Source: Lautropia mirabilis (lineage in GTDB: Bacteria; Pseudomonadota; Gammaproteobacteria; Burkholderiales; Burkholderiaceae_E). From it: 64,000 nt of DNA. The stretch is taken from NCBI RefSeq assembly GCF_900637555.1, contig NZ_LR134378.1:134001-198000 (forward strand), given 5' to 3'. The notes under the pieces are model-generated. The model was not told where the DNA came from. It saw only the letters and a list, made by a program, of their open reading frames with translations, and did not search any database. A program made the position numbers and the translations under genes. The stretch's first letter is position 1. Each line of letters opens with the position of its first letter. Below, piece after piece: positions 5,646 through 7,137 of this stretch.

Positions 5646-5861
5646 GCCCATCCAACCGTCAGGCCTGGCCAAGTAGGCGCTACCAAGCAGGCCGGGCCAC
5701 GCCAAGCCAATCGGCCCCAAACAGGGCAGACATCGGGTCCGATCGCGCCCGGGCCGAACAGGGCCAGACGACAGTCCCCTCGCCGTAATCTGGCTGTGCG
5801 GCGAGGATAGGCGCCATGACGGGTGCCTAGCGCCAATAGAGGTAATGGATCCTCAAATAGA

Positions 5862-5884
5862 GGTAATTTCACGCTGAAATTACC
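5862..5884. promoter_or_regulatory. palindromic operator candidate 1
   Basis: Perfect inverted repeat GGTAATTTC - 5 nt - GAAATTACC, extended imperfectly on both sides by AAATAGA and CATTTA. It shares its core with the longer palindrome about 130 bp downstream and sits about 190 bp upstream of the Fic start. The likely role is a binding site for a dimeric regulator, but the binding protein is not shown. Confidence 0.55.
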
Positions 5885-5977
5885 CATTTACGGACTGCTT
5901 TACCCCCTTTCTTGCCTCCATTTCGCCTCATTTTGGCTGAAATTCACGCCAAAACAGGCTCTGAATGGCAGAACAAT

Positions 5978-6045
5978 GGGGTAATGGATCGCATAAATGG
6001 GTAATTTAGGCCGAAATTACCCATTTAGAGGACTATCATTACCCC
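5978..6045. promoter_or_regulatory. nested palindromic operator candidate 2 at the Fic promoter
   Basis: The inner palindrome has 14-bp perfect arms (TAAATGGGTAATTT at 5994-6007, AAATTACCCATTTA at 6014-6027) around AGGCCG, whose central GGCC is also symmetric, leaving one mismatched pair in 34 bp. It is flanked almost concentrically by GGGGTAATG (5978-5986) and CATTACCCC (6037-6045). An 11-nt direct repeat, GGTAATGGATC, starts at 5841 and 5980. The array ends about 25 nt before the Fic ATG, so bound protein would probably control that gene. Confidence 0.6.
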
Positions 6046-6069
6046 TATTCTCCTCACTGCCCCCTTCCG

Positions 6070-7137
6070 ATGCGATCCCTCACCGCCGACTATCTGGACA
6101 GGCTCCGCTTCACCCACTCGCAGCTGGCCACCCTGCGCGCACTCGGTGAGTTCCAGGGCAAGCAGCAGCTCTACCGTGTCCAGCTGCCCGAAGTGCTGAA
6201 GGGACTGCAGAAAGCGGCCACCATCGAATCCACCGAGTCCTCCAACCGTCTGGAAGGCGTCATCATCTCCACCCAGCGCCTGCACGCCCTGATGCTGAAG
6301 GACGCCACGCCCCGAAGCCGTTCCGAACAGGAGATCGCCGGCTACCGCGACGCCCTGAACCTGATCCATGAAAGCGGCAAGGAGATGCCTTTCTCGGAAG
6401 GCACCATCCGGCAGCTGCACGGCATCATGTACCGCTACATGCCCCAGCCCGGCGGACAGTGGAAAGCCACCAACAACGACATCATCGAGCGTCAGCCGGA
6501 CGGACGTTCCCGCGTCCGCTTCGCCCCCGTGTCCGCCCACCTCACCCCGATGGCCATGGCGGACCTGATCGCCCACTACCGATCTGCCCTGGATCAGCAC
6601 CTGGCCGATCCCCTCGTGCTGGTGCCCCTGGCCATCCTGGACTTTCTCTGCATCCACCCCTTCCCCGACGGCAATGGCCGCATGGCACGCCTGCTGACCC
6701 TGCAGCTGCTCTACCACTTCGACTACGCTGTCGGGCGCTTCATCAGCCTTGAACGGCTCTTCGAGGAATCCAAGGAAACCTACTACGAGACCCTGGAAGC
6801 CAGCTCCCAGGGCTGGCACGACGGCCAGCACGACAGCATGCCCTGGCTCAACTACTTCTGGGGCGTCCTGCTGCGCGCCTACCGAGAATTCGAGACACGC
6901 GTCGGGACGCTGGAACATGGCCATGGCGCCAAGGGCGAGCGTGTCCGTGCAGAAGTTCTAAGACGCCAGCACCCCTTCGCCATCTCGGATATCGAGGAGG
7001 CCTGTCCTGGCGTCAGTCGGGACATGGTCCGACATGTGTTGCGCACCATGAAGGATGAGGGACTCATCACGCCGGAGGGCAAGGGGCGCGCTGCGAGATG
7101 GCGACATTCGGCGGATGGCTCTTCATCGTCTTCGTAG
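6070..7137 (+). CDS. Fic-family protein (AMP transferase fold) with C-terminal winged helix
   Basis: Fic enzymes usually transfer AMP from ATP to a hydroxyl side chain of a target protein. The complete catalytic motif HPFPDGNGRMAR starts at His196. An N-terminal inhibitory helix of the S-x-x-x-E-G type is visible (Ser58, Glu62, Gly63), placing it with class II, N-terminally autoinhibited Fic proteins. A Fic-N-like region precedes the core. Residues from about 290 contain a helix-turn-helix-like segment (ISDIEEACPGVSRDMVRHVLRTM), suggesting DNA binding. No Phd- or VbhA-like antitoxin gene adjoins it. The upstream palindromes suggest autoregulation, which is inference. Confidence 0.92.
   Translation: MRSLTADYLDRLRFTHSQLATLRALGEFQGKQQLYRVQLPEVLKGLQKAATIESTESSNRLEGVIISTQRLHALMLKDATPRSRSEQEIAGYRDALNLIHESGKEMPFSEGTIRQLHGIMYRYMPQPGGQWKATNNDIIERQPDGRSRVRFAPVSAHLTPMAMADLIAHYRSALDQHLADPLVLVPLAILDFLCIHPFPDGNGRMARLLTLQLLYHFDYAVGRFISLERLFEESKETYYETLEASSQGWHDGQHDSMPWLNYFWGVLLRAYREFETRVGTLEHGHGAKGERVRAEVLRRQHPFAISDIEEACPGVSRDMVRHVLRTMKDEGLITPEGKGRAARWRHSADGSSSSS

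Follow-up and report, generated by a model that had tools for sequence, protein, structure and literature searches.

The fic gene in the 64-kb stretch of DNA analysed here (the window) is preceded by a 76-bp array of half-sites, present in two copies 139 bp apart (5835-6049), that is very probably the docking site for the winged-helix tail of the Fic protein itself. Each copy comprises four half-sites with the consensus AAATGGGGTAAT in the order > > < <. Fic proteins of this family probably act as self-limiting switches for anti-phage defence operons. The best explanation of the locus as a whole, which we consider likely to be correct, is that the array is a dedicated Fic operator through which fic would repress itself, and that the family, of which the window copy is a solitary representative, provides leader repressors of mobile defence operons.

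Table 1. Features of the fic locus in window coordinates; arrowheads give half-site orientation.
Feature	Position	Strand	Description	Basis
Distal operator array (putative)	5835..5910	+		PWM scan; de novo search
Distal half-sites	> 5835-5846, > 5856-5867, < 5879-5890, < 5899-5910		Spacing 21/23/20 bp	
Proximal operator array (putative)	5974..6049	+		PWM scan; de novo search; orthologue conservation
Proximal half-sites	> 5974-5985, > 5994-6005, < 6016-6027, < 6038-6049		Spacing 20/22/22 bp	
Putative -10 hexamer	6034..6039	+	TATCAT; its closing AT is also the first AT of the fourth proximal half-site	
fic gene	6070..7137	+	355 aa, class II Fic with C-terminal winged helix	Pfam Fic 7e-15
Inhibitory helix motif	6241..6258	+	SNRLEG (S58-G63), class II position	Alignment
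Fic active-site motif	6655..6690	+	HPFPDGNGRMAR (H196-R207)	Alignment
Winged helix	6922..7107	+	Residues 285-346, recognition helix 317-329	AF2 secondary structure; alignment

Half-sites were counted as 12-nt units, with distances taken from start to start. The steps of 20-23 bp place the four sites of each copy about two helical turns apart, and thus on one face of the DNA. Every repeat described in the original prediction was found. The seven GGTAAT/ATTACC cores are all exact (5841, 5862, 5879, 5980, 6000, 6016 and 6038) and are joined by an eighth, degenerate core in the fourth distal half-site (TTTACC, 5899). The 34-bp palindrome (5994-6027, with 17-nt arms that are 94% complementary) is enclosed by the proximal array, the near-concentric outer inverted repeat lies at 5978-5986/6037-6045, the second, shorter palindrome at 5862-5871/5875-5884, and the 11-nt direct repeat GGTAATGGATC at 5841 and 5980. 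What that prediction had missed is the unit to which they belong: the palindromes, the flanking repeat and the direct repeat are pieces of one > > < < array that is present twice.

A chance origin of the array is excluded by shuffle tests. Across 5000 dinucleotide shuffles of the array stretch, exact cores averaged 0.18 and never exceeded 3, against the seven observed; three exact cores occur elsewhere in the window. A de novo search for the > > < < arrangement gave scores of 46 for the distal and 50 for the proximal copy, against maxima of 37 and 39, respectively, in 1000 shuffles for each. The G+C content is 44% in 5835-6069 versus 66% for the window, and 20 nt separate the last 12-nt half-site from the fic ATG. 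Two pattern searches of the organism's own genome found no further array and returned just the two known units, alongside a single unrelated palindrome and some loose matches due to chance; trans targets in this genome were rejected on these grounds. The palindrome, near C1:722,030 (L197:1484-1538), is a near-perfect 55-bp structure, TGCATTCAGATGACTAGGGTAATACGAATGGTATTACCCTAGTCATCTGAATGCA, adjoining a small gene on the opposite strand; it has the GGTAAT core in common with the array and lacks the array layout.

Conservation of the array was assessed in loci picked by similarity. A scan of a genome collection returned 80 relatives, spread over many beta- and gammaproteobacterial genera and 70-79% identical; two were set aside because the match did not start at the start codon, leaving 78 orthologues, or 79 loci with the window. 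The four-site model fitted within 135 bp of the ATG in all 79, with a weak first site in about 3%, and the last half-site ended 16-27 nt 5' of the ATG. Two spacings dominated, 20/22/21 (n=33) and 22/21/22 (n=28), and together accounted for 61 of the 79 loci. At least three PWM matches per 250 bp were found upstream of every fic, whereas the remainder of these loci gave 0.026 per 250 bp; since the matrix was built from these same promoters, the comparison with background, and not the match itself, is the test. Among 32 non-redundant sequences, the information content was mostly about 1-2 bits in half-site columns and below 0.5 bit in most spacer columns. Being related by descent and transfer, the 79 loci do not represent 79 independent events. 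The search for half-sites upstream of orthologous fic genes that had been proposed as a check thus found the array in 78 of 78 close orthologues with a readable start; the opposing case, a winged helix kept with the palindromes gone, was looked for and did not occur among them. The distal array was present in 24 of the 79 loci including the window (23 of the 78 orthologues). No Shine-Dalgarno-like purine stretch was seen in 6046-6069 or its equivalents in orthologues, many of which have a pyrimidine-rich leader (CTTACATTTCC-ATG).

The fic gene was absent from eight same-genus genomes, and in one same-genus locus examined as an empty-site comparison prmC was followed by unrelated genes. Because these genomes lack fic and the organism's own genome holds no second array, operator and gene travel together; a plasmid-borne orthologue likewise carried the array. 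The horizontal acquisition of fic, with integrases upstream in many orthologous loci, would also suit an origin of the sites in a mobile element or an integration or partition system (att, MITE or centromere-like) lying beside fic fortuitously. However, no second copy exists in the own genome, and the position of the array is fixed relative to the start of fic and not to the integrase, the array being kept in loci without an integrase, which makes such an origin very improbable.

The downstream edge of the proximal array coincides with a putative -10 hexamer. At this position, a match of at least four of six bases to TATAAT was found in 75 of 79 loci, compared with 6% of random positions. Although two of the six positions are also part of the half-site, the T and A that open the hexamer lie outside it and are each 94% conserved; the pattern in orthologues is a conserved TAnnAT touching the last half-site. 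The -35 element of the window is weak (CCGAAA, 3/6). Since a consensus scan of the window promoter found no promoter, the assignment of the -10 rests on this conservation. As in Fic-HTH autorepressors, the repeat array lies over the gene's own core promoter, the promoter being a putative one recognised from sequence. Since the -10 hexamer would be hidden beneath a protein bound to the proximal array, we infer repression.

The same geometry bears on whether the inverted repeats might instead work as RNA or single-strand hairpins (attenuator, terminator or riboswitch). The 34-bp palindrome could make a strong hairpin, but with the probable -10 at its downstream edge most of the array would be untranscribed from there. 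In addition, half-site identity is conserved beyond pairing, the outer sites directly repeat the inner ones at two-turn spacing, and the arrays of sister clades are not simple palindromes. The array had no Rfam match, and no terminator-like site was found on the plus strand. A hairpin function is accordingly a remote prospect, and occupation of the array by a DNA-binding protein is preferred.

The features expected of a class II Fic protein with a winged-helix C-terminus, as first predicted, were borne out, with intact motifs in the alignment and a well-predicted winged helix. The inhibitory helix matches [S/T]xxxE[G/N], the motif of class II Fic proteins, and S58, E62 and G63 were invariant in 28 aligned sequences. 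The active-site motif (residues 196-207) agrees with HxFx[D/E]GNGRxxR, and its key residues are invariant in relatives. The AF2 model had a mean pLDDT of 89.5, with residues 285-346 mostly at 78-90, and contains the C-terminal HTH/winged helix that characterises Fic-HTH autorepressors; full-length Fic-HTH structures were among its fold matches. The closest solved protein was a Bordetella bronchiseptica Fic protein (8uqu; E 1e-176 over residues 1-345; 66-67% identity in structural alignment), which was rejected as a full-length structure for the subfamily because it was deposited as the N-terminal domain only. SoFic (3eqx) and CccR (7XUX) were distant structural matches.

In more distant relatives, the half-site differed where the recognition helix differed (GGGGTAAT, AATGGATTAA and TTCTGCnTAA), and the spacing stayed near 21 bp. 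Three clear classes link helix and site. The helix SRDMVR/SRDMIR pairs with GGGTAAT, located 5' of fic or, in operon-internal copies, 3'; in the latter (46-50% identity) the upstream array is missing, GGGTAAT repeats lie at the fic 3' end and the helix is still SRDMVR/SRDMIR. The helix GRDTIRSAL pairs with AATGGATTAA on the 3' side of fic, with an inner spacing of about 21 bp (z 4.0-11.7). In phage-borne relatives (about 41% identity), the helix STSTVE or a similar one pairs with TTCTGCnTAA in the arrangement > 21 > 23 < 20 < (z up to 9.0), which is that of the distal array in the window. Beyond the close orthologues, relatives thus have either the same half-site 3' of fic or another half-site that tracks another recognition helix; Firmicute relatives have palindromes that match the four-site scheme poorly.

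Several of these loci have features of their own. The phage-borne Fic-winged-helix gene at L101:2959-4032, and those of L137-L143, have an extra upstream pair in addition to the TTCTGCnTAA > > < < array; in L101, fic sits between the genes for the terminase large subunit and the portal. In four loci (L202, L203, L211 and L212) the AATGGATTAA array lies 3' of fic and before the next ORF, so that it may control the downstream gene and not fic. A type I specificity gene precedes fic in L202 and L203; in L203, PADLOC did not bear out HsdR as the identity of the ORF that follows fic. Loci with a Fic protein of about 30% identity (L118-L135, for example L120, L121, L122 and L127) have other, direct repeats before the gene, such as TTGGGTGTAATTGGGTGTA or TTATTGGATAA. 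Self-operators may be general among Fic-HTH proteins.

The co-variation of site and helix bears on the main alternative, in which an unrelated regulator of the host or the element would bind the array and the Fic winged helix would serve intraprotein or substrate contacts. Such a domain need not bind DNA: the C-terminal domain of SoFic shifts conformation on ATP binding and regulates toxicity (PMC12249575). Against an unrelated regulator, the half-site changes along with the Fic recognition helix, the sites shift to the 3' side of fic where the gene is operon-internal, and array and fic are found together in many beta- and gammaproteobacterial genera, on a plasmid and on phage contigs, where no neighbouring regulator is common to all. 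Four lines of sequence evidence speak for binding by Fic itself: the joint travel of gene and array, the GGGTAAT repeats at the fic 3' end in copies whose helix is unchanged, and the two other half-sites, AATGGATTAA and TTCTGCnTAA, that go with altered helices. We therefore regard binding by an unrelated protein as improbable, and the proposal that Fic binds and represses its own promoter as supported.

The neighbourhoods of 49 orthologous loci, of roughly 7-20 kb each, were surveyed, with defence genes identified by PADLOC. Recognised defence genes stood directly behind fic on the same strand in 31 of the 49: a YprA/DruE-like helicase in 16, type I restriction in 8, a DrmD-like gene in 5 and a PLD-SNF2 helicase in 2. 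Among the 16 YprA/DruE-like loci, 15 also had an SNF2 helicase and nearly all a DrmMI/PglX-like methylase. Of the remainder, three had a helicase not in PADLOC, one had a Cas9-like gene further on, the next large gene on the same strand after fic (L153:1982-5176), and 14 had no such gene. These 14 loci keep the array, which assigns the operator to fic and not to the cargo. A tyrosine integrase was found upstream of fic in about 17 of the 49. A 2516-aa ORF behind fic (L157:4791-12338) had no PADLOC match and is a possible undescribed defence gene, as is a ResIII-helicase gene (about 1040 aa) in L175 and L193.

In about 15 loci the gene order behind fic (YprA/DruE-like helicase, SNF2 helicase, PglX/DrmMI-like methylase) is that of ARMADA type I, described in a preprint (PMC12458937) whose main text makes no mention of Fic. 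The gap between fic and cargo is 9 bp in most ARMADA-like loci, which suggests co-transcription. A search of the open-access PMC literature turned up no paper describing Fic proteins at the head of ARMADA-like or type I restriction operons, a result that does not prove absence. The description of fic as solitary, made from the window, therefore holds for the window copy, whose neighbours are prmC and a DUF6463 gene, with none of the ARMADA-type genes, and fails for most orthologues, which head defence operons. Given these neighbours, a defence operon at the window locus itself was rejected.

Most Fic enzymes belong to class II, the functions and control of which are almost wholly obscure (PMC9755527). 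Autorepression by a Fic-HTH protein is not new: in Yersinia pseudotuberculosis, CccR (YPK_0951; PDB 7XUX) gives footprints on inverted repeats near the -35 and -10 of its own promoter and represses this promoter through them (PMC9755527). CccR is likewise a class II Fic protein with a C-terminal HTH, at about 20% identity to the window Fic in structural alignment. It has one pair of 10-bp sites 26 bp apart, whereas four sites at 21-bp steps are present here; it is also secreted by a T6SS and has no link to defence operons in PMC9755527.

SoFic/EcSofic, a single-gene anti-phage Fic (PMC12249575), shares the two-domain layout of a Fic enzyme and a C-terminal domain, at 17-18% structural identity. 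The PADLOC SoFic profile matched residues 22-344 (E 3.2e-37; 126.8 bits), and the NCBIfam SoFic equivalog NF046030 gave 40.5 bits against a cutoff of 550, which places the window Fic outside it. In EcSofic a 47-aa antitoxin, AS1, is encoded downstream; here, the gene after fic often begins at a distance of 9 bp. Between the window fic and the DUF6463 gene no obvious 47-aa ORF was seen on the fic strand, and no antitoxin-like ORF stands out beside fic.

In their position, the operon-heading relatives resemble BrxR (PMC9122601) and RptR (PMC12255303), which are first genes of defence islands, repress themselves through upstream repeats and are conserved with defence systems. BrxR, however, combines a winged helix with a WYL domain and RptR is a small helical protein that binds TAGCTA, and neither has a Fic domain; Pfam found the Fic domain alone in the window protein, with no WYL domain, which sets it apart from the BrxR family.

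In the proposed mechanism, the C-terminal winged helices of Fic oligomers would dock on the four half-sites along the same DNA face; the bound protein would lie over the fic core promoter and repress fic. Four sites suggest two Fic dimers, on the inner inverted pair and the flanks or as interleaved dimers. The recognition helices of CccR are about 70 A apart (PMC9755527), which by our own arithmetic is about 21 bp of B-DNA and would fit the array step. The distal copy would serve as an auxiliary operator, perhaps contributing cooperativity or looping. As the class II enzyme is also self-inhibited, one protein would carry two locks. Once repression is lifted, fic would be expressed along with the genes that follow it, so that in operon-heading relatives defence genes would be co-induced, much as for the leader repressors BrxR and RptR, while the window copy would keep the operator and control only itself. 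More tentatively, and on balance doubtfully, the nucleotide state or AMPylation activity of Fic may set its grip on the operator, infection releasing the operon and arming a Fic toxin; in the same proposal, specificity would have been re-set at least twice through the recognition helix while the two-turn, four-site geometry was kept, phages included.

For a whole Fic subfamily equipped with its own operator, direct experiments on the target site, the affinity and the trigger come within reach. The association with ARMADA-like and type I restriction operons points to a so far unrecognised class of defence-operon regulators, repressors that would double as enzymes and possibly as toxins.
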